Source of the DNA: Actinokineospora enzanensis DSM 44649
GTDB taxonomy: Bacteria; Actinomycetota; Actinomycetes; Mycobacteriales; Pseudonocardiaceae
Direction of reading: 5' to 3'
DNA length: 64,000 bases
Assembly (NCBI RefSeq): GCF_000374445.1
Contig: NZ_KB894436.1
Coordinates: 1 to 64,000 of the forward strand
Within the stretch, counting starts at the first letter, position 1. Every line of letters starts with the position of its first letter. Made by a program: the position numbers and the translations under genes. Under the pieces are notes generated by a model. The model had not been told where the DNA came from, did not search any database, and saw nothing but the letters and a program-made list of their open reading frames with translations. Below, piece by piece: positions 32,765-62,846 of the stretch.

Positions 32765-32853
32765 CTGTCCACAGCCAAGATCACCAGCCCCCCGAAACTG
32801 TCGCCCCCACCCACTGGCATGGATTCCAGGGGGCCGACGGCCGCCCAAGATCA
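32765..32853 (+). repeat. Interspersed DnaA-box repeat, copy A (type II)
   Basis: It begins with CTGTCCACA (32765-32773), then AAGATC, a diverged core TGGCAT at 32815, GGGGGCCGACGGCCGCCC and a closing AAGATCA at 32847-32853. The start-to-closing-motif distance is 82 bp, identical to copy J. It lies 29 bp after the stop of the radical SAM gene and in the same orientation. Confidence 0.75.
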
Positions 32854-33336: not shown

Positions 33337-34544
33337 CCCGCGTCGAGGACCTGCTGCGCGAGCTGGCGCCGCAGGTCCTCGGCGTGTTGGTGCGACGGCA
33401 CGGCCGGTTCGACTTGTGCGAGGACGCCGTGCAGGAGGCGCTGTTGGCGGCGTCGACGCAGTGGCGGGTCGAGCTGCCGGACAACCCGCGCGGCTGGCTG
33501 ATCACGGTCGCTTCCCGCCGCCTACTCGACCTGCTCCGCGGCGACGAGTCCCGCCGCAGGCGCGAGGACGCGGTGTTCGCGGCCACCCCGCAGTCCGCGC
33601 TGCTGGGCCGCCCGGCCGACGACCCGGACACCACAGTGGACGACTCGCTGCGCCTGTTGTTCCTGTGCTGTCACCCGGATCTGTCCGAACCCAGCCGCAT
33701 CGCCCTGACCCTGCGCGCCGTCGGCGGCCTGACGACGGCCCAGATCGCCGCCGCGTTCCTGGTCCCGGAGACGACGATGGCGCAACGGATCAGCCGCGCC
33801 AAGCAGACGATCAAGGGCAGCGGTTTCGGCGAACCCGCGGACGACCGCCTCGGCGCCGTCCTGCACGTCCTCTACCTGATCTTCAACGAGGGCCACACCA
33901 CCTCCGCGGGCCCCGACCTCACCACCCCCGCCCTCTCCGACGAGGCGATCCGCCTCACCCGCTGGCTGCACCGCCTCCGCCCGGACGACCCCGAGACGTC
34001 CGGCCTCCTCGCCCTGATGCTCCTCACCGACGCCCACCGCCCCGCCCGAACCGGTCCGACCGGCGAACTGATCACCCTCGCCGACCAGGACCGCACTCGG
34101 TGGAACCGCGCGTTCATCGACGAAGGCATCGCCCTGATCACGGCCACCTTGCCCCGCGGCCCCGTCGGCCCATACCAGCTACAGGCCGCCATCGCCGCCG
34201 TGCACAGCGAGGCCCCCGCCGCCGACGCCACCGACTGGCCCCAGATAGCCGCCCTCTACGAACTCCTGGAACACGTCGCCCCCAGCCCGGTCGTCACCCT
34301 CAACCGGGCTGTCGCGGTCGCCATGGTCGACGGTCCGGAAGCAGGCCTTGCCCTGGTGCGGACCGTCGAATCCGACAAGCACATAGCTCGCGGCCACCGC
34401 CTGCACGCCATCCGCGCCCACCTCCTGGAAATGTCCGGAAACCCCACCGCCGCCCACACCGCCTACCGCGAAGCCGCCCGCCGCGCCACGAGCCTCGTCG
34501 AACGCCGCTACCTCTCCGAACGCGCCAACCGCCTGTCCGACTGA
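33333..34544 (+). CDS. ECF-type RNA polymerase sigma factor (ECF42-like) with C-terminal extension
   Basis: A 403-residue sigma factor. Sigma region 2 spans about 15-75 (LCEDAVQEALLAA...NPRGWLITVASRRLLDLLR) and region 4 about 105-165 (LTLRAVGGLTTAQIAAAFLVPETTMAQRISRAKQ). A ~200-residue helical extension follows, containing YLIFNEGH and ALYELLEHVAPSPVVTLNRAVAVAM. This architecture with a YciI neighbour marks the ECF42 group, which has no anti-sigma factor; the extension is thought to control activity. The GTG at 33333 overlaps the YciI stop. Repeat copy B starts three bases after its stop. Confidence 0.9.
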   Translation: MTRVEDLLRELAPQVLGVLVRRHGRFDLCEDAVQEALLAASTQWRVELPDNPRGWLITVASRRLLDLLRGDESRRRREDAVFAATPQSALLGRPADDPDTTVDDSLRLLFLCCHPDLSEPSRIALTLRAVGGLTTAQIAAAFLVPETTMAQRISRAKQTIKGSGFGEPADDRLGAVLHVLYLIFNEGHTTSAGPDLTTPALSDEAIRLTRWLHRLRPDDPETSGLLALMLLTDAHRPARTGPTGELITLADQDRTRWNRAFIDEGIALITATLPRGPVGPYQLQAAIAAVHSEAPAADATDWPQIAALYELLEHVAPSPVVTLNRAVAVAMVDGPEAGLALVRTVESDKHIARGHRLHAIRAHLLEMSGNPTAAHTAYREAARRATSLVERRYLSERANRLSD

Positions 34545-34547
34545 GAC

Positions 34548-34653
34548 TTATCCACAACCAAGATCCACACCCGTCTCGCTCTCTGCTTTCCCCAGGTAGA
34601 ATTGATTTCGGGGGTCCCCAGGGAGTTGTCCACATCGGGCCGAGCCATCCACA
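34548..34653 (+). repeat. Interspersed DnaA-box repeat, copy B (type I, three boxes)
   Basis: Boxes in one orientation: TTATCCACA at 34548-34556, TTGTCCACA at 34626-34634 and CCATCCACA at 34645-34653. CAAGATC follows box 1, and TAGAAT stands at 34597, 49 bp from box 1. GGGGGTCCCC precedes box 2. Spacings are 78 and 19 bp. It starts three bases past the sigma factor stop. It is very similar to copy D over the stretch between boxes 1 and 2. Confidence 0.85.
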
Positions 34654-34684
34654 GGTCGGCGGGCGTGCTGGGCAAGATCAGGAA

Positions 34685-34725
34685 ACGGAGAAGGCCACCC
34701 CGAGCACCGGGGTGGCCTTCTCCGT
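34685..34725. terminator. Strong bidirectional terminator between sigma factor and helicase genes
   Basis: A perfect 18-bp stem spans 34685-34702 and 34708-34725 with a 5-base loop. It lies between convergent genes, 12 bp before the helicase stop, and suits termination of both. Confidence 0.88.
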
Positions 34726-34736
34726 GATGGTGACTG

Positions 34737-36278
34737 TCAGCCGCGGTCGGCGCCGCGGCGGTCGCCCTCGCGCCAGCCTCGGGGGAGGCCGGAGCGGCGG
34801 GCGGCCCGGTTGGCGCCTTCGCGGGGCTGGAAGTCGCGGGTACGGCGGGGGGCGTGCTCGCGCGGGTGCTCGCCGTTGTGGTCGCGGTCGCGCGGCTGGT
34901 GCTCGCGGCGGCGGGGGTTGCCGCCCTCGAACTCGCGCTTGCCCTCGAAACGGCGACGACGCGGGGCGGCGTGGCCGGAGCGCGGGGGGCGGGCGGGCGG
35001 CGGGGTGTCGATCACCGGTTCGCCGCTGGGGACGCGAGCGCCGGTGATGCGGACCAGTTCCGCGTCACCGGGGCGGACCCGGGTGTGCTCGGGCTTGACG
35101 CCCGCCTTGTCGGTCAGGCGGACGACGCCGCGGCGCTGCTCGTGCGTGACAACCGTGACCACGGTGCCTGCCTCGCCCGCGCGCGCCGTGCGACCCGCGC
35201 GGTGCAGGTAGTCCTTGGGGTCGGCAGGCGGGTCGACGTGCACGACCAGGCTGACGCCGTCGACATGGATGCCGCGGGCGGCCACGTCCGTGGCGACCAG
35301 CACCGGGTTGTCGCCGTCGCGGAACTGGCTGAGGACGCGGTTGCGCGCGCCCTGCGTCTTGCCGCCGTGCAGCGCGCCCGCGCGCACGCCGACCGAGCGC
35401 AGCTTCTCGGCCAGCCGGTCCACGTGGTGCTTGGTGCGCACGAACATGATGGTGCGGCCGTCGCGCGCGGCCATCTCGGTGATCACGTCCGCCTTGTCCT
35501 GCTTGGACACCAGCAGCAGGTGGTGCGCCATGGTCGACACGCTGGCCGTGGCCACGTCCACCGAGTGCGTCACCGGGTCGTGCAGGTACCGCTTGACCAG
35601 CTGGTCGACGTCGCCGTCCAGGGTCGCGGAGAACAGCAGGACCTGGCCGTCGCGGTCGGTGAGGTCGAGGATCTCCCGAACCTGCGGCAGGAACCCCATG
35701 TCGGCCATCTGGTCGGCCTCGTCGATCGCGCTGAACTGCACCGAGTCCAGCACGCAGGTGCCCTGCCGCACGTGGTCGGACAGCCGACCCGGGGTGGCGA
35801 TCAGCAGGTCGACACCGCGCCGCAGCGCCTCGGCCTGCCGCGGGAACGACATGCCGCCGACGGCCGTGCGGCACCACAGCCCCAGCGACTTCGCCAGCGG
35901 CGTCAACGCGTCGCTGACCTGCAGGGCGAGCTCACGGGTCGGCACCAGGATCAGTGCACGCGGCCGCAGCGGCGCCGACGAGCCGCCGTCCAGCCGGGCC
36001 AACAGCGCCAGCCCGAACGCGAGCGTCTTGCCCGACCCGGTCTGGGCACGCCCCAGCACGTCCCGACCCGCCAGCGCGTCCGGCAGGGTCGCGGACTGGA
36101 TGGGGAAGGGGGAGTCGATCCCGGCGTCGGCCAGCGCGCGCAGCAGCGGCTTGGGCAGACCGAGATCGGCGAAGCTGACGGTGGTGTCCTCGTAGCGGCC
36201 CTTGCCGCTCTGCCGGTGCCGAGGCTTGCGCTCCTCGACGTCGACGGGGTCGTTCGTGGGCAGGACAGAGTTCTGCAC
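34737..36278 (-). CDS. DEAD-box RNA helicase
   Basis: A 513-residue ATP-dependent RNA helicase. Motif Q (FPIQSATLPDAL), motif I (AQTGSGKT), motif Ia (PTRELALQV), motif II (DEAD in AIDEADQMADMGF), motif III (FSATL) and motif VI (HRAGRTARAG) are all present. The C-terminal ~100 residues are Arg/Gly/Asn-rich, an RNA-binding tail. The GTG at 36278 is preceded by GGAGAGG, and homology begins shortly after; longer readings would run into the CRISPR array. It likely acts in ribosome assembly or mRNA turnover. Confidence 0.92.
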   Translation of the reverse strand: MQNSVLPTNDPVDVEERKPRHRQSGKGRYEDTTVSFADLGLPKPLLRALADAGIDSPFPIQSATLPDALAGRDVLGRAQTGSGKTLAFGLALLARLDGGSSAPLRPRALILVPTRELALQVSDALTPLAKSLGLWCRTAVGGMSFPRQAEALRRGVDLLIATPGRLSDHVRQGTCVLDSVQFSAIDEADQMADMGFLPQVREILDLTDRDGQVLLFSATLDGDVDQLVKRYLHDPVTHSVDVATASVSTMAHHLLLVSKQDKADVITEMAARDGRTIMFVRTKHHVDRLAEKLRSVGVRAGALHGGKTQGARNRVLSQFRDGDNPVLVATDVAARGIHVDGVSLVVHVDPPADPKDYLHRAGRTARAGEAGTVVTVVTHEQRRGVVRLTDKAGVKPEHTRVRPGDAELVRITGARVPSGEPVIDTPPPARPPRSGHAAPRRRRFEGKREFEGGNPRRREHQPRDRDHNGEHPREHAPRRTRDFQPREGANRAARRSGLPRGWREGDRRGADRG

Positions 36279-36573: not shown

Positions 36574-36846
36574 CGACGACACCCCGCCTGCGCGGGGACG
36601 AGGGGGTCGGGTCGGTACAGGGTCATGGCGTGCAGGGAGCATCCCCGCGTGCGCGGGGACGAGACGGGGACCATCCTGGACAACACCGCGCTGGCGGGAG
36701 CATCCCCGCGTGCGCGGGGACGAGGAGGCGGACATCGTCCTCGACGTGCGCGACTGGGGAGCATCCCCGCGTGCGCGGGGACGAGTTCTGGTCTAGCAAC
36801 ATCCTGTCCATGCCGAAGGGAGCATCCCCGCGTGCGCGGGGACGAG
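36574..36846 (-). CRISPR. Type I-E CRISPR array, 5 repeats and 4 spacers
   Basis: 29-bp repeats with a 61-bp period and 32-bp spacers. Four repeats are identical (36635-36663, 36696-36724, 36757-36785, 36818-36846) and carry the type I-E core CCCCGC-N4-GCGGGG. A fifth at 36574-36602 is degenerate on its left side. Read on the minus strand the repeat has the I-E form (CTCGTCCCCGCG start, GGGGATGCTCCC end), so the degenerate unit is the trailer repeat and the leader lies to the right of 36846. Spacers: 36603-36634, 36664-36695, 36725-36756, 36786-36817. No cas gene is in the window. Confidence 0.95.
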
Positions 36847-36900
36847 GCTTGCTGACCTGCGGCGTTCCGAACCGCAACAGTGTTTCTCATTCACTTGTGA
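36847..36900 (-). promoter_or_regulatory. Probable CRISPR leader end
   Basis: The stretch right of the last perfect repeat is locally AT-richer (around 36880-36900) than its surroundings. It occupies the leader-proximal side given the repeat orientation. A promoter for the minus-strand crRNA precursor would be expected here; none was pinned down. Confidence 0.45.
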
Positions 36901-36980
36901 CGCTCACCGGCAAGATCACGACCAGCCACACCCACGCCTGCGATCCACAGCCGCGCCCAGGCCGGCCCCCACCCAATCCC

Positions 36981-37064
36981 GGGGGGCGTCCCCGGGCCCA
37001 TTCTACCGGGTGGGGGCGCCAGTGGATCTTGGAACAGGGGCGGGCAGGGGCGGCCTGTGGATAA
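36981..37064 (-). repeat. Interspersed DnaA-box repeat, copy C (type III)
   Basis: On the minus strand: GACAGAAGTTATCCACAGG with an exact TTATCCACA (plus coordinates 37056-37064), then CAAGATC, then TAGAAT at 37005-37000, 59 bp from the box, followed by a GC-rich run. Only one box is clear. It lies 40 bp after the RIO kinase stop in the same orientation, and close to the CRISPR leader. Confidence 0.72.
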
Positions 37065-37103
37065 CTTCTGTCGCTCGGACGGGTGAAGTTCGGCGGTCCG
37101 GGA

Positions 37104-38894: not shown

Positions 38895-38978
38895 CCGATG
38901 AGCGTAAAGAACCCGGCCGCGCGAGGAATCCTCGGTGTACTCATCGGGCCGAATCCTGGTCAACCCGTGATCGGTGCC

Positions 38979-39085
38979 TGTGGATGGTTCGGCGAGGGTG
39001 TGGACAACTGGCCGGGGACCCCCGAAATCCATTCTATCTGGGGAAAGCGGAGAGCGGGGCGGGTGTGGATCTTGCCTGTGGATAT
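38979..39085 (-). repeat. Interspersed DnaA-box repeat, copy D (type I, three boxes)
   Basis: On the minus strand: ATATCCACA (39085-39077), CAAGATC, TAGAAT (5' base 39036, 49 bp from box 1), GGGGGTCCCC, TTGTCCACA (39007-38999) and CCATCCACA (38987-38979). Spacings are 78 and 20 bp. It closely matches copy B between boxes 1 and 2. It is tandem with copy E. Confidence 0.85.
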
Positions 39086-39123
39086 CCACCTGGCGCGGGG
39101 ATCGTCAAGCGCGGAGCGCCGCC

Positions 39124-39230
39124 TGTGGATGCTTCGGGGGGATGTGGATAACTGCCCTGGGGACCCCCGAATTCCACTCTACCTGGGAAAACGGGCGGTC
39201 CGCCAGTGCGATGATCTTGCCTGTGGACAG
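39124..39230 (-). repeat. Interspersed DnaA-box repeat, copy E (type I, three boxes)
   Basis: On the minus strand: CTGTCCACA (39230-39222), CAAGATC, TAGAGT (5' base 39181, 49 bp from box 1), GGGGGTCCCC, an exact TTATCCACA (39151-39143) and GCATCCACA (39132-39124). Spacings are 79 and 19 bp. It starts one base after the stop codon of the VOC gene, same orientation. Confidence 0.85.
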
Positions 39231-39231
39231 C

Positions 39232-39591
39232 TCAGGCGGAGGAGCCGACACAGAACTCGTTGTTCTCGGGGTCGGTGAGGACGGTCCAGGTCATGCCGGG
39301 GACGGAGTGTTCGCCGTGGGCGGTGGCGCCGAGGGCGACGAGGCGGGCCACCTCGGCCGGGCGGTCCTCGGTGTGGAAGTCGAGGTGGACGCGGTTCTTG
39401 CCGAGTTTGGGTTCCGGGACGCGCTGGAGGCCGACGAAGGTGGAGGGGCCGTTCGGGTCGGTGGGGGCGAGGAAGATGAACTCGCCCTCGTAGTCGGCCT
39501 GGATCTCGTAGCCGAGGGCCTGGGTCCAGAAGGCGGCGAGGGTGCGTGGGTCGGCGCAGTCGATGGTGGCGCCCGCGATGCTGATGCTCAT
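39232..39591 (-). CDS. VOC-family (glyoxalase/bleomycin resistance fold) protein
   Basis: A 119-residue single VOC domain pair. It shows GATIDCADPRTLAAFWTQALGYEI, NRVHLDFHTEDRPAEVARLVALGA and TVLTDPENNEFCVG, which match DUF6/glyoxalase-like VOC proteins of actinobacteria. Substrate unknown. The ATG at 39591 is chosen over one at 39642 because the latter overlaps the divergent mtnA start and a tandem repeat. Confidence 0.85.
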   Translation of the reverse strand: MSISIAGATIDCADPRTLAAFWTQALGYEIQADYEGEFIFLAPTDPNGPSTFVGLQRVPEPKLGKNRVHLDFHTEDRPAEVARLVALGATAHGEHSVPGMTWTVLTDPENNEFCVGSSA

Positions 39592-44259: not shown

Positions 44260-44339
44260 CCCGCCATCGTGACATGCCCGACCACCAGTGGATCCCGCCC
44301 GCGCCCCCTCCCGATTTTCACCCGACCAAGCGACAGAAG

Positions 44340-44433
44340 TTATCCACAGCCCCGCCCCTCGAAGCCCATTCCAAGATCCTTTGCCACCCCCACCGAGTAG
44401 AATGGCCGAGGGGGATCCCCCTGGGAGCGGTGG
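44340..44433 (+). repeat. Interspersed DnaA-box repeat, copy F (type III)
   Basis: CGACAGAAGTTATCCACAG with an exact TTATCCACA at 44340-44348, CAAGATC about 25 bp on, TAGAAT at 44398 (58 bp from the box), then GGGGGATCCCCCTGGGAGCG. The ending matches copy K and the start matches copy C. The rest of the 300-bp gap (44434-44559) shows only a stray GATCTTGG; no gene is seen. Confidence 0.75.
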
Positions 44434-49037: not shown

Positions 49038-49140
49038 GGTTGGTGTGTGGGGTCTCAATCTGGGGGCTCAGGGACGGGGATAACGGCTGCTGCTGTGTTT
49101 ATTGGCTCGGCTTCGCCTCGCGGCGGGATCGCCTTTAGCC

Positions 49141-49203
49141 GGTCTCTTCCCACCCGATCCCACTCGGCCCGGGGGGCCTCCTGGGATCGGGTGGGAAGAG
49201 ACC
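49141..49203. repeat. Long perfect inverted repeat (22-bp arms)
   Basis: Arms 49141-49162 and 49182-49203 are perfectly complementary (GGTCTCTTCCCACCCGATCC... outward), with a 19-base GC-rich loop. A second, outer pair GCGGGATCGC/GCGATCCCGC flanks it with an uneven bulge. It lies in the 274-bp gap after the membrane protein gene and before the convergent DUF4439 gene. It could be a bidirectional terminator or a small mobile hairpin element. Confidence 0.8.
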
Positions 49204-49311
49204 GGCGCGATCCCGCGTGGTGGTCCAGTCAGGGGTGGTTGAGTTTGGGGTGGCTGGGTTAGTGGTGGTTGGGGTGAGGGGACAAGAGGCCCGGGGGAGT
49301 GTGGGTGGGGC

Positions 49312-55978: not shown

Positions 55979-56431
55979 GTGGCTGACGCACCCCGCGCCC
56001 GCAAGCTCGCGAAGCGCATCTCGCAGATCGTGGCCTCCGCCCTGGAACACGAGGTCAAGGACCCCCGGCTGGCCCGCGTCACCATCACCGACGCCAAGGT
56101 CACCGCCGACCTGCACGATGCCACGGTCTACTACACGGTCCTCGGCGACAAACTCGACACCCAACCCGACCACGCAGGCGCCGCCGCCGCCCTGGAGAGC
56201 GCGCGCGGGGTACTGCGCACGATGGTCGGGCAGGGGACCGGTGTCCGCTTCACCCCCACACTGACCTTCGTGGCCGACACGATCCCGGACGACGCACGAC
56301 ACATCGATGACCTGCTGGCCCGCGCGCGGGCCGCGGACGCGGAGGTGGCGGCGAAGGCCTCGGGGGCTGTTTACGCGGGTGAGGCCGATCCTTATCGGGC
56401 GCCCAAGGAGGACGAGGACGACGAGGACTGA
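55979..56431 (+). CDS. rbfA: Ribosome-binding factor A
   Basis: A 150-residue 30S maturation factor with a single KH-type fold. It shows [40 protein letters not shown] and a late [16 protein letters not shown]. The GTG at 55979 follows AAGAAAGAAGGAG, a strong site. A short acidic C-terminal tail ends the protein. Repeat copy G starts 10 bp past the stop. Confidence 0.94.
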
Positions 56432-56441
56432 GCGGTCCCGG

Positions 56442-56548
56442 TTGTCCACAGGCAAGATCGTTCGGCGGGGGATCCTCGGGTTTGTCCAGGTAGAATGGAT
56501 ATCGGGGGTCCCCCGGCTGGTTGTCCACATGGTCCTGAACCATCCACA
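56442..56548 (+). repeat. Interspersed DnaA-box repeat, copy G (type I, three boxes)
   Basis: TTGTCCACA at 56442-56450, CAAGATC, TAGAAT at 56491 (49 bp from box 1), GGGGGTCCCC, TTGTCCACA at 56521-56529 and CCATCCACA at 56540-56548. Spacings are 79 and 19 bp. It follows rbfA directly in the same orientation. Confidence 0.86.
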
Positions 56549-56585
56549 GGCACGTCGTCCGGCTTGACGGGCGCGGGCCTGTGGG

Positions 56586-56662
56586 TTGTCCACAGGGCGG
56601 GGTGCGCGGGGCGGTCGGATTGTCGGTACCCCTGGCTAGGCTGGATCCCGGGGGGCCGAGGG
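56586..56662 (+). repeat. Interspersed DnaA-box repeat, copy H (type II)
   Basis: TTGTCCACA at 56586-56594, ATTGTCGGT, a core TAGGCT at 56637 (51 bp from the box) and GGGGGGCCGAGGG. It matches copy J in layout but lacks a clear closing AAGATC. The stretch from 56663 to 56813 holds no gene. Confidence 0.72.
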
Positions 56663-56813
56663 CAGCGCTCGGTCAAAGTCATTGGTTGCGGGCCGTCTGA
56701 TCAGCGTGAACGTCACCGGCTGGTGTTCGTCCTCGGCTGGGTGAGGGTGACTTCGGAGCAGGATCTTGGCCCGCTCCCGGGAAGACCGCGCACCCGTCAA
56801 CCGTTGCGGCGAG

Positions 56814-56919
56814 CTATCCACAGGCAAGATCGTTCTCGCTGCGCGCTGGGTGTTTTCCCAGGTAGAATGGATATCGGGGGTCCCCTGGGAGTTATCCACA
56901 GTGGGCTGAGCCATCCCCA
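56814..56919 (+). repeat. Interspersed DnaA-box repeat, copy I (type I, three boxes)
   Basis: CTATCCACA at 56814-56822, CAAGATC, TAGAAT at 56863 (49 bp from box 1), GGGGGTCCCC, an exact TTATCCACA at 56892-56900 and a mismatched third box CCATCCCCA at 56911-56919. Spacings are 78 and 19 bp. It is the clearest copy in the cluster. Confidence 0.86.
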
Positions 56920-57048
56920 GGCGCCCCGCCGGGCTTGACGGGTGTGTGGGCTCCAGGCGAGTGGGCCTGGGGCCGCGCGGGTATGGCCCGTGTCGGTGTT
57001 GCGTTCGTGGACATTCGGCTGGTGTGGGCGGTTCTGGCTGGGATGAGG

Positions 57049-57137
57049 TTGTCCACAGGCGGGATCGCTTGTGGCGCCTGGATTGTCGGTGTCACCGACT
57101 AGAATGGATACCGGGGGCCGAGGGCCGCCCAAGATCA
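57049..57137 (+). repeat. Interspersed DnaA-box repeat, copy J (type II)
   Basis: TTGTCCACA at 57049-57057, ATTGTCGGT, TAGAAT at 57100 (51 bp from the box), GGGGGCCGAGGGCCGCCC and closing AAGATCA at 57131-57137. The 82-bp span from box to closing motif equals that of copy A, 24 kb away. Confidence 0.8.
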
Positions 57138-57292
57138 AGTGTGGTTCTCCTGCCCGGCACCGAGTCGCCTGTCGCCTGTCGCCTTCGGCGTGGTGCGGTC
57201 GCTGAACGCCTCAGCCTCGCCGTGGTGCTGGAGCGCCTTGGTCTCTCTGGACTCGCTCGCCGCCTGCGGCTCGCTGATGCCCGCTGCTCGTA

Positions 57293-57530
57293 GTCGTCTG
57301 AGGTTCGCGATCGGTGCCACCAGTTGCTCTCGTGGCTCGCTGACGCTCGCGTTGCCCATGGCTCGTGGTCGCCGGTCACTCGAAGTCGTCCGACGTTGCG
57401 ATCGGCACCGGCAGCCGTGGCGGCCTGTCACTCGCGGTCGTCCGACGTTTGCGATCGGCGCAGGCAGTTGTTGCGCGTACTGCTGGTAGCCCGCCACTTG
57501 CGGTCGTCCGACGCTGTGACCAGCCGCTAC
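57293..57530. repeat. Degenerate tandem repeats in the rbfA-hydrolase gap
   Basis: The motif GTCGTCCGACG, followed by GCGATCGGC and a GGCAG-type stretch, recurs at about 57293 (as GTCGTCTGAGG), 57385, 57437 and 57503. Unit lengths vary (92, 52, 66 bp), so the array is decaying. No reading frame with coding character runs through it. It sits between repeat copies J and K. Confidence 0.55.
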
Positions 57531-57618
57531 TGCTCGGCTCGCGTCGCCTGCTCGTGGTCGCCTGCGGCTCATCCCCCGCCACGTTGGCGCAAGATCGAGA
57601 AATCGGGCCGGACATATA

Positions 57619-57704
57619 ACCCGCCGCTCCCAGGGGGAGCCCCCAAGGCCCATTCTACTCGGTCGGGGCGTCGCGCAGGCTGGTGTTGATCTTGCCTGTG
57701 GATA
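57619..57704 (-). repeat. Interspersed DnaA-box repeat, copy K (type III)
   Basis: On the minus strand: CGACAAGTTATCCACAGG with an exact TTATCCACA (57704-57696), CAAGATC, TAGAAT (5' base 57656, 48 bp from the box) and GGGGGCTCCCCCTGGGAGCG. The ending matches copy F. It faces away from the hydrolase gene that follows on the plus strand. Confidence 0.78.
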
Positions 57705-57879
57705 ACTTGTCGCTGGGGTGGGTGACGCGAGGGGGTGAAGTTCACGACAGGGGTGAAGATCGTGCGGAGATCTGGTGTCGATCGCCATAAGGTCTGGCGG
57801 ACATCAGGGTTCACCAGGGAGGATGCGGGGGAGCGGAGGCGCGTCGGGGTGGCTCCGGGGAATCTGGGACCGGGAGTGC

Positions 57880-58746
57880 ATGTCCGGCCGCGTCACGCGT
57901 CGTCAGGCTATCGCGGGGGCGATAGGCGCTGGGGCTACCACGATCGGGTTGGGGATCTTCGGGGCGTGGGCGCTGCGTCACGATCAGACGCCGGTCAGTG
58001 AGGTGCGGACGCCGATTCCGGAGCCGGGGCCGCCGCCGTCGTCCAAGGCGCAGCCGAAGCTGTTGGAGGTTCGGCAGGTCCACTCCAAGGCGCGTGGGCG
58101 CGACGTCCAGTTGATCACCTATCGGCCGGATGGGCTTGCCGAGGGCGGCACGCTGCCGGTCTGTCTCGCGTTCCACGGGCGTGGGGCCGGGGCGAGCATG
58201 TTCACCGATCTCGGGGTCGGCGGTCAGCTCAGTGCGGCGGCCGCGTACGCGGTGGTCGCCGTCGACGGCGGGGACTCGTACTGGGTCAAGACCAGCGCCA
58301 AGGACGATCCGGTGGCGATGTTGACCGACGAGTTACCCGGCTGGCTCGCCGAGCTCGATGTCGCGACCGCGCCGTTCGCCGTGCTCGGAGTGTCGATGGG
58401 CGCGTACGGAGCACTCGACTACGTGCGCGCGCACCGCGACTCCATCAAGGCCGCCGCCGTCATCAGTCCCGCGTTGTTCACGTCCTGGAACGACGCGCGC
58501 GCACGTGACGTATTTCCCACTCGGGCGCTGTGGGAGGAGACCGAGCCGTTGCGGCACATCCCGGAACTCGGCAAGGTGCCGCTCGGGGTCTGGTGCGGGA
58601 CCAAGGATCCCCTGCTCCCGTCGGCGAACCGCCTGATCGACACGGCGCGGCCGGTGCTCGCGCGGACCGCGGTGGGCGGGCACGACGCGAACTATTGGAC
58701 GTCGGTGCTGCCCGAGGCGATGTACTTCGTAGGCTCGCACATCTGA
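57880..58746 (+). CDS. Tat-exported alpha/beta hydrolase, paralogue 1
   Basis: A 288-residue putative esterase of the esterase-D-like fold. A twin-arginine signal is seen at the start (TRRQAIAGAIGAGATTIGLG). The nucleophile elbow is GVSMGAYGA, the acid is near CGTKDPLL, and the catalytic His is in GGHDANYW. It is 127 bp from a similar gene. The ATG at 57880 follows GGGAG closely; an upstream ATG at 57775 would put the signal far inside the protein. Substrate unknown. Confidence 0.8.
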   Translation: MSGRVTRRQAIAGAIGAGATTIGLGIFGAWALRHDQTPVSEVRTPIPEPGPPPSSKAQPKLLEVRQVHSKARGRDVQLITYRPDGLAEGGTLPVCLAFHGRGAGASMFTDLGVGGQLSAAAAYAVVAVDGGDSYWVKTSAKDDPVAMLTDELPGWLAELDVATAPFAVLGVSMGAYGALDYVRAHRDSIKAAAVISPALFTSWNDARARDVFPTRALWEETEPLRHIPELGKVPLGVWCGTKDPLLPSANRLIDTARPVLARTAVGGHDANYWTSVLPEAMYFVGSHI

Positions 58747-58873
58747 CGTTCGTCGTGTAGACCTTGTGGTCCCGCACTGTCGAGGCGGCCTGGTCGGCGC
58801 GACACCGACCGCGTCGGGGGCCGCACCCGGCGGGGCGGGGCGACTAGACCATCCCACCCCCGGGAGTTCCAGA

Positions 58874-59695
58874 GTGGACGGACGTTGGACCCGACGCGGT
58901 TTCCTGGTCGCGAGTGCCGTGGGAGCCGCGGCGCTGGCGGGCTGCGGCAAGTCCCAGACACCGCAGACGGCGTCGCGCACGGCGCAGGCCACGACCGCGG
59001 CGGTGGAGGCCGCGTCGGTGAGCAACCTGACCTGGCGTTCGTCCATCGGTGACGTGAAGATGATCGTGATGCGCCCGCGCGAGGTGTCCGGGCCGCTGCC
59101 GGTGTGCCTGGCGCTGCACGGCGAGGGCGAGGACGCCAACCAGTTCGTCGACATGGGTCTGCCGCCGTTGCTCACCGCGACGGTCCGCGCGGGTACCCGG
59201 CCGTTCGCGGTGGTCGCGGTGGACGGCGGCAAGCAGAGTTGGCTGGGCGCGCCGCAGAAGATGCTGGCGGAGGAGCTGCCGGACTGGTTGACGCGTGCGG
59301 AACTGGCCGACACCCCGTTCGCGACGCTGGGTGTCTCGGGGGGCGCGGTCGGTGCGTTCCAGTACGCGCGCACGCCCGGTCTGACGCTGTACTCCGCGTT
59401 GAGCCCATTGCTGTACACGTCGTGGAAGGACGCGGAGAAGTCCGGTATCTACACCGACGAGCAGCAGTGGCAGCAGACGGAGCCGATGCGGAACCTGACC
59501 GCGATCGCCGGGCTGCCGGTGTCGGTGTACTGCGGCACCGAGGACGCGGCCTGCCCGGCTGCACGGGACTTCGCCGACAAGGCGGGCTCGAAGACGGCGG
59601 TGTTCGCGCCAGGTGACCACTCGGCGACGTACTGGAAGCGGGTGCTGCCCGAGGTGCTGCGCAACATCGGTGACGCGCTCGGCAAGAAGAACTGA
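58874..59695 (+). CDS. Tat-exported lipoprotein hydrolase, paralogue 2
   Basis: A 273-residue relative of the preceding hydrolase. The signal has twin arginines and a lipobox (TRRGFLVASAVGAAALAGC), so it should be a Tat-exported lipoprotein. The elbow is GVSGGAVGAF, the acid region is CGTEDAACP and the His is in PGDHSATYW. GTG 58874 is chosen so that the signal is N-terminal. The pair probably arose by duplication. Confidence 0.8.
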   Translation: MDGRWTRRGFLVASAVGAAALAGCGKSQTPQTASRTAQATTAAVEAASVSNLTWRSSIGDVKMIVMRPREVSGPLPVCLALHGEGEDANQFVDMGLPPLLTATVRAGTRPFAVVAVDGGKQSWLGAPQKMLAEELPDWLTRAELADTPFATLGVSGGAVGAFQYARTPGLTLYSALSPLLYTSWKDAEKSGIYTDEQQWQQTEPMRNLTAIAGLPVSVYCGTEDAACPAARDFADKAGSKTAVFAPGDHSATYWKRVLPEVLRNIGDALGKKN

Positions 59696-62637: not shown

Positions 62638-62772
62638 TCGTCCACTGAGGACTATGCGGGCCGGTCCGGCGGACACGTCGGGCCCGGCATCCGTGGTGCG
62701 CCGGGGTCTGGTCGGCGCAGTGCGGATGCGTCGGTCAAGTCCCGGGTGGCGGCTGTCGATTGTTCGCGGGCA

Positions 62773-62846
62773 TGTGGACAACTCGCGGGGGACCCCCGGT
62801 TTTCATCCTGCCTGCCTGGGCGTGCAGGTGCGCGGAGTTGTCCACA
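62773..62846 (-). repeat. Interspersed DnaA-box repeat, copy L (diverged type I)
   Basis: On the minus strand: a core CAGGAT (5' base 62810), GGGGGTCCCC, TTGTCCACA (62781-62773, 29 bp from the core as in copies B, D and I), then a weak third box. At the place of box 1 there is instead an inverted TTGTCCACA at 62838-62846 on the plus strand. It lies just past the response regulator gene in the same orientation. Confidence 0.65.

Follow-up and report, generated by a model that had tools for sequence, protein, structure and literature searches.

The gap between rbfA and a Tat-type esterase gene in Actinokineospora enzanensis DSM 44649 contains five copies of a short DNA repeat that carries DnaA boxes. 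We interpret this gap, with a probability of roughly three in four, as a site where a dispersed, non-autonomous intergenic repeat has piled up locally and largely in this species alone; the repeat occurs widely across Actinokineospora and in a patchy manner in the Pseudonocardiaceae. The repeat itself is best read as a REP/MITE-like, non-autonomous element carrying DnaA boxes. Its copy number, its boxes, its pattern of conservation, its 3'-leaning intergenic position, its arrays and its absence from most orthologous intervals were established directly. Dispersed repeats are common in bacteria; the interest of this one is that DnaA boxes are its best-kept part and occur in numbers far above those of the origin.

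Five repeat copies in the rbfA-esterase gap

The window analysed (the whole stretch of 64,000 nucleotides) contains rbfA, which ends at 56431, followed by repeat copies of types A, C, A, C and B and then by the esterase gene. The sequence-only reading had placed five copies of three types in this gap, and all five were recovered by a profile, R1, built from 29 type A copies (alignment A2); copy H gave the weakest match.

55979-56431, plus strand: rbfA, ribosome-binding factor A, upstream flank (Pfam RBFA, E 4e-28)
56440-56550, plus strand: copy G, type A (R1, 89.3 bits); boxes TTGTCCACA at 56442 and 56521, core TAGAATGGAT at 56491, GGGGGTCCCC, weak box CCATCCACA at 56540
56584-56657, plus strand: copy H, type C (R1, 18.6 bits, E 8e-4); box TTGTCCACA at 56586, TTGTCGGTA-8 nt-TAGGCT at 56620-56642 (from motif spacing)
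56813-56921, plus strand: copy I, type A (R1, 86.9 bits); boxes CTATCCACA at 56814 and TTATCCACA at 56892, core at 56863
57047-57119, plus strand: copy J, type C (R1, 30.5 bits); box TTGTCCACA at 57049, TTGTCGGTG-8 nt-TAGAAT at 57083-57105, in agreement with the RecA-NDp consensus
57614-57706, minus strand: copy K, type B (R1, 38.5 bits over 57631-57706; type B alignment A1); box TTATCCACA at 57697 (minus strand), core TAGAATGG, GGGGGCTCCCCC
57880-58746, plus strand: Tat-type esterase, downstream flank (Pfam Esterase, E 1e-9; Tat type read from the N-terminus)

Copy H is a direct repeat of copy J (73% over 71 nt), and copy J is similar to copies of type C in the nearest relative. The probable start of the esterase is ATG 57880, not GTG 57775, because the nearest relative (L142) has the same ATGTCCGG start; with this start the gap is nearer 1.45 kb than the 1.3 kb given earlier. 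That the gap is free of genes was borne out by a six-frame Pfam scan, which returned a single match (E 0.087) under its cut-off. Comparison of the gap with phage and plasmid collections gave nothing at E 0.001, and the part at 57138-57610 had no match at E 0.001 in 1.09 Mb of the same genome or in the stretches from relatives. The first esterase gene is followed by a second, paralogous one (40% identity; window 57880-59695), and such paralogues recur in congeners.

Six exact TTRTCCACA words, at 56442, 56521, 56586, 56892, 57049 and 57697 (minus strand), span 1.26 kb of the gap. Inclusion of CTATCCACA at 56814 brings the number of 9-mers with at most one mismatch to seven, and CCATCCACA at 56540, with two mismatches, makes eight DnaA-like 9-mers, in agreement with the earlier count of at least eight. 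The window as a whole contains 15 exact words against 0.25 expected per 64 kb (first-order Markov model with window composition; maximum of 2 in 200 simulations), so that about 0.005 would be expected in the gap. The same density (six per 1343 bp) is reached at C1:312595 and C2:135739 in a sample of 891 kb, or 11% of the genome. This sample contains 88 exact words, of which 71 come from the 811 kb that do not belong to C34, the contig of the window; extrapolation gives about 700-800 for the genome, membership in repeats being proven for part of them only. The dnaA gene is on another contig (C19) and adjoins its own box cluster at C19:16346-16717, which is presumably the origin. The conclusion drawn from the sequence alone, that the gap is not the origin, is supported. 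The dnaA-adjacent cluster contains TTGTCCACA twice, TTATCCACA twice, and also CTGTCCACA and related words. The repeat copies carry the same box words as this cluster, and for that reason we infer that DnaA binds the boxes of the repeat. If it does, the boxes of the chromosome as a whole would buffer DnaA, and the cluster in the gap would add little by itself. E. coli DnaA favours pairs of boxes 2-3 bp apart, according to passages of PMC11317965; the boxes of the repeat are spaced more widely, which speaks against tight binding.

Anatomy and conservation of the unit

The type A unit is about 110-150 bp long and consists of a DnaA box, approximately 47 bp, the TAGAATGGA core, GGGGGTCCCC, a second box, a weak third box and CTTGAC. 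The boxes within one unit are direct repeats (alignment A2). Mean pairwise identity among the 29 type A copies is 0.68. Their majority frequency is 0.95 for box 1, 0.97 for box 2, 0.89 for box 3, 0.97 for the core and 0.95 for GGGGGTCCC, values that are inflated for box 1, the core and GGGG, since the 29 are a manual selection from 40 copies that had been required to contain these three. Box 2, box 3 and CAAGATC lay outside the selection criteria; the CAAGATC columns also fall within 0.89-0.97, and the 60 other columns have a majority frequency of 0.61. The copies left out were six of type B or C together with L018:4966, L023, L026, L036 and L041. In the best 31 of the 42 R1 matches on two other contigs, one or more boxes are retained in 30 and a TAGAAT-like core in 18, which identifies the box as the steadier part of the unit.

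Spacing within the unit is also kept. In a set of 103 copies from 20 genomes that had been selected for a box 38-66 bp upstream of a core, the box-to-core distance was 45-50 bp for 93 of 112 box occurrences and 57-58 bp for 8. At the CTTGAC terminus, 39 of 52 cores have TTGAC at +72 to +77. We considered and rejected a promoter that would arise where tandem units meet, from the TTGAC of one and the core of the next: just one TTGAC lay within 60 bp upstream of the 52 cores, at -50. In type B, the majority columns across species are TAGAATGG before GGGG-N-GCCCCC, and GGGTGGGGGC.

A conserved RNA fold was not apparent. Rfam gave no hit at gathering level in the window and nothing up to E 5 in the gap, and six loci from relatives gave three sub-threshold matches. 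Single-sequence folds of 40 copies differed from each other. RNAalifold placed three pairs, with no double change, in 36 type B-like sequences hand-picked from 71 distinct copies (50 of which were flagged as type B), and a covariation scan of all column pairs gave five and three isolated pairs in two alignments, none of them stacked. With no stacked structure-preserving changes, the conserved thing looks like DNA sequence and not an RNA fold. The strong conservation of box and core could reflect a host function instead of neutral spread.

Size and taxonomic spread of the family

A 121-base query from copy I gave 50 matches in the A. enzanensis genome, and profile R1 gave at least 149 at E ≤ 0.01 (149 of the 150 candidates scored). 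Some R1 matches were found in 14 of 15 congeners, with 122 in G010, 53 in G008 and 50 in G002. Two other contigs of the A. enzanensis genome (811 kb) contained 42 R1 matches at E ≤ 0.05, which, if weak and truncated matches are counted, corresponds to about 400 copies per genome. The pattern TCCACAG-N30-58-TAGAATGG matched 51 times in this genome and was present in 32 of 297 Pseudonocardiaceae genomes (this one counted) and in 10 of 46 genera; the reversed pattern, used as a control, matched in 1 genome among the 297. At class level (394 genomes) the pattern was found in A. enzanensis, in G004 and in four others with one match each, and the control in 1 genome, so the pattern is near control level outside the family. 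The spacer between box and core varies between species and is common to many copies within some (G002, G010), as would be expected of lineage-specific amplification. Our literature search found no description of such a DnaA-box repeat; the part of the search on datA carries little weight.

The window contains seven further copies.

32766-32835, plus strand: type C-like by eye (profile)
34548-34655, plus strand: type A, within a synteny breakpoint (profile)
36975-37065, minus strand: type B (A1 alignment; E 0.001 with the type A profile)
38977-39087, minus strand: type A, head-to-tail pair with 39122-39231 (profile)
39122-39231, minus strand: type A, pair partner with a 145 bp period (profile)
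44339-44425, plus strand: type B (A1 alignment; E 0.001 with the type A profile)
62752-62830, minus strand: 5'-truncated (profile)

Two other repetitive features were noted in the window. A CRISPR-like array at 36582-36858 has at least five repeats of the GGGAGCATCCCCGCGTGCGCGGGGACGAG type with a 61-bp period, and a palindrome at 49138-49206 (GCCGGTCTCTTCCCACCCGATCCC...) has 33-bp arms that are 91% complementary. The same kind of palindrome opens contigs C2 and C5 (L044, L045) and may represent another repeat family, one at which the assembly breaks.

Genomic position and arrays

With genes called by a simple codon-usage predictor, 39 of 39 copies in A. enzanensis and 44 of 44 in six relatives were intergenic; in the relatives, 36 of the 44 had an upstream neighbour on their own strand. 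TTRTCCACA occurred at 1.47 per kb of intergenic DNA in convergent gaps, 0.74 in tandem gaps and 0.12 in divergent gaps; the fractions of gaps with a box were 12/90, 20/229 and 5/119, respectively (convergent versus divergent, p 0.02). Convergent gaps yield the same strand automatically, and therefore only tandem gaps are informative on strand. An apparently strong strand bias was weakened once these alone were counted: 14 tandem gaps had boxes oriented with the upstream gene, 4 had the opposite orientation and 2 were ties (p 0.03). Boxes starting no more than 20 bp past a same-strand stop made up 7 of 80 intergenic boxes, compared to 455 of 12000 random draws, an approximately twofold excess that rests on seven boxes.

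Clusters of boxes and repeats are ordinary in this genome. Among the 103 matches listed for it, 56 fell into 23 clusters under a 600 bp rule (15 pairs, 6 triples and 2 quadruples) and 47 were single; 19 of the 33 spacings within these clusters were 123-169 bp. The eight listed clusters of three or more kept to one strand throughout, except for one copy of the four at C1:312574. The suggestion that the gap is a hot spot for repeat accumulation is supported.

Several contig ends lie at or near copies. At L032 (C12), L033 (C17) and L024 (C65) the same end, GAGGTCAAGGA, abuts the copy's GGATCCCC or GGACCCC, and at C12 and C65 this end follows a transposase-like frame, which we take to be IS30; the repeat may thus serve as a target for insertion. 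At L031 (C35) and L041 (C26), identical transposase-like ends lie about 100 bp from copies at two contig ends.

We propose that copies would spread in trans through an enzyme, could then multiply locally by tandem duplication, and would settle at places where they do little harm.

The interval in relatives

Compared with six named Actinokineospora species, the rbfA protein shows 88-90% identity to five and 78% to the sixth. Twelve of the 15 congeners have rbfA no more than about 0.9 kb upstream of the esterase orthologue, with another gene between the two in at least two of them by eye, and these 12 are informative; the other three have their best esterase match away from rbfA. A single type C-like copy was found in the interval of G010, the nearest relative by rbfA (94%), and by motif and profile there was none in the other 11. 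Conservation of the cluster among close relatives, one of the outcomes that the sequence-only reading had left for comparison, was therefore not observed. That reading had named two findings that would count against it, absence of the repeats from the interval in close relatives and absence of DnaA binding; the interval is indeed without the cluster in close relatives, and the half that concerns DnaA binding stands apart from this result.

Besides the G010 gap copy, R1 found four weak matches outside the gap in syntenic stretches of five congeners. A G015 match among them, on the opposite strand, adjoins the gene that corresponds to window position 32.6 kb. The window's copy at 32766 is close to this position, and the site may therefore have a copy in both species; the window's other copies had no counterpart in these stretches. 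Inverted repeat copies lie within synteny breakpoints at window 34538-34964 (relative to G006, G010, G012 and G015) and 38925-39242 (relative to G006, G012 and G015), and the block between them is inverted and moved in those congeners.

Alternative explanations

A dedicated DnaA titration locus, in the manner of datA or the box clusters of Streptomyces and Bacillus, would hold DnaA in its boxes and delay initiation. The six exact boxes in 1.26 kb, in the same words as beside dnaA, agree with such a role, and an excerpt of PMC5742627 describes clusters in S. coelicolor and B. subtilis that repress untimely initiation. As a property of this gap, however, titration is very improbable, and the earlier likening of the gap to datA did not hold up: its position is not conserved, with no copy in 11 of the 12 informative congeners, its density is equalled at two other spots, and 71 exact boxes lie in the 811 kb outside contig C34. 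In addition, in three single-contig congeners the locus is 1.7 Mb (G014), 2.1 Mb (G007) and 2.2 Mb (G006) from dnaA, if these contigs are circular. Box density by itself is no marker of a titration locus, and any DnaA sink would be chromosome-wide and not a matter of this gap. The copies might instead be transcription-end elements, at which DnaA bound just past the stop codon would form a roadblock and so terminate transcription of the gene upstream; part of PMC11317965 describes promotion of termination by DnaA in this way. The excess of boxes in convergent over divergent gaps, their orientation with the upstream gene in tandem gaps and their proximity to stop codons all point in this direction. 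However, tolerated insertion would show the same 3' preference, seven boxes account for the twofold excess, covarying RNA pairs were never stacked and rbfA manages without the element in 11 congeners; we regard this explanation as unlikely. A broader function, in which several hundred constrained consensus boxes behind genes buffer DnaA chromosome-wide, bound copies act as roadblocks and a PafBC-type subfamily provides a link to the DNA-damage response, is also doubtful. Numbers of R1 matches vary across the congeners from at least 149 to none at E 0.01. This natural variation in copy number allows a comparison of replication control, by which the initiator-titration model would become testable.

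The copies could also be promoter modules, with TAGAAT as the -10 element and type C as PafBC/RecA-NDp promoters, that give short transcripts after DNA damage. The RecA-NDp promoter consensus is tTGTCRgtg-8 nt-TAnnnT in the text available from PMC5656591; copy J fits it, and copy H does so with TAGGCT. Upstream of 103 cores, YGTCRG occurred 23 times, 17 of them at exactly -16, which is the published spacing, and the regular box-to-core distance is in line with a promoter as well. The same YGTCRG signature is present at L238 of G192, from another genus and outside the 103-copy set. Two neighbouring WYL-domain frames of the A. enzanensis genome (G000), at C2:174189-175363 (frames at C2:174189 and 175163), could be PafB and PafC. 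Against promoters as the general explanation, the 17 copies came from five species (10 from G010, 3 from G000, 2 from G013 and 1 each from G004 and G015), so that the ten from G010 are not independent, and 86 of the 103 copies lack the motif at that place. Of the 31 R1 matches, moreover, 13 lack the core pattern (in L292 just the final base differs), and every one of these retains a box. The gene downstream lies on the opposite strand for 17 of 36 copies in A. enzanensis and 27 of 40 in relatives, and no convincing reading frame follows the copies in the gap. This makes the promoter explanation quite unlikely. A related idea, that the copies are what remains of promoters whose DUF222-HNH genes (presumably of the 13E12 type) have been lost, some genes of this kind having RecA-NDp-like promoters in this order, draws on the presence of the pattern upstream in 3 of 26 loci by strict matching (L172, L179 and L182; more by eye) and on L195 of the relative G024, where a DUF222 gene is preceded, at about 200 bp, by a repeat copy. 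No such gene is present in A. enzanensis or in 13 of 15 congeners, the repeat-rich G010, G008 and G002 among them, and the exact core TAGAATGG was found in only one of the 26 loci; we judge DUF222 very unlikely to be the source gene. The DUF222 gene at L195 also has an SOS-like box of its own.

Comparison with known systems

REP elements prefer 3' regions and form small clusters. Bacterial MITEs and RUP/BOX-type repeats are non-autonomous, dispersed and intergenic, with species-specific versions. The Actinokineospora repeat shares these features of MITEs and RUP/BOX elements. The boxes of its unit are direct repeats; terminal inverted repeats, a target-site duplication and a precise empty site did not emerge from the comparisons. 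With REP/BIME elements, which are described in an excerpt of PMC1525189 as short, dispersed, intergenic, palindrome-containing targets of insertion sequences, it has the short, dispersed, intergenic and palindromic character in common, probably also the role of insertion target, as well as the 3' preference and the small clusters. It differs from them in its longer unit (about 110-150 bp), its conserved DnaA boxes and the lack of a Y1 transposase gene in the genome: a search for the REP-type (RAYT) transposase domain PF01797 gave 0 matches in A. enzanensis, and the control was positive in 5 of 14 genomes.

Type C copies resemble the RecA-NDp (P1) promoters under PafBC in their fit to the consensus and their 8-nt spacing. 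They differ in that no gene was seen to follow them in the gap and in that the signature is confined to a subfamily. With the box clusters of Streptomyces and Bacillus and with E. coli datA, the gap shares several DnaA boxes close together outside the origin; the Bacillus clusters likened to datA are oriC-proximal according to a title in the reference list of PMC5742627, unlike this locus with its 1.7-2.2 Mb to dnaA in the three single-contig congeners, if circular. A datA-like locus would also be expected to hold its position in relatives and to be exceptionally dense for its genome, and the gap does neither, two equal spots being present in 891 kb. In contrast to the boxes of those systems, the Actinokineospora boxes are parts of a dispersed repeat whose place is not conserved.
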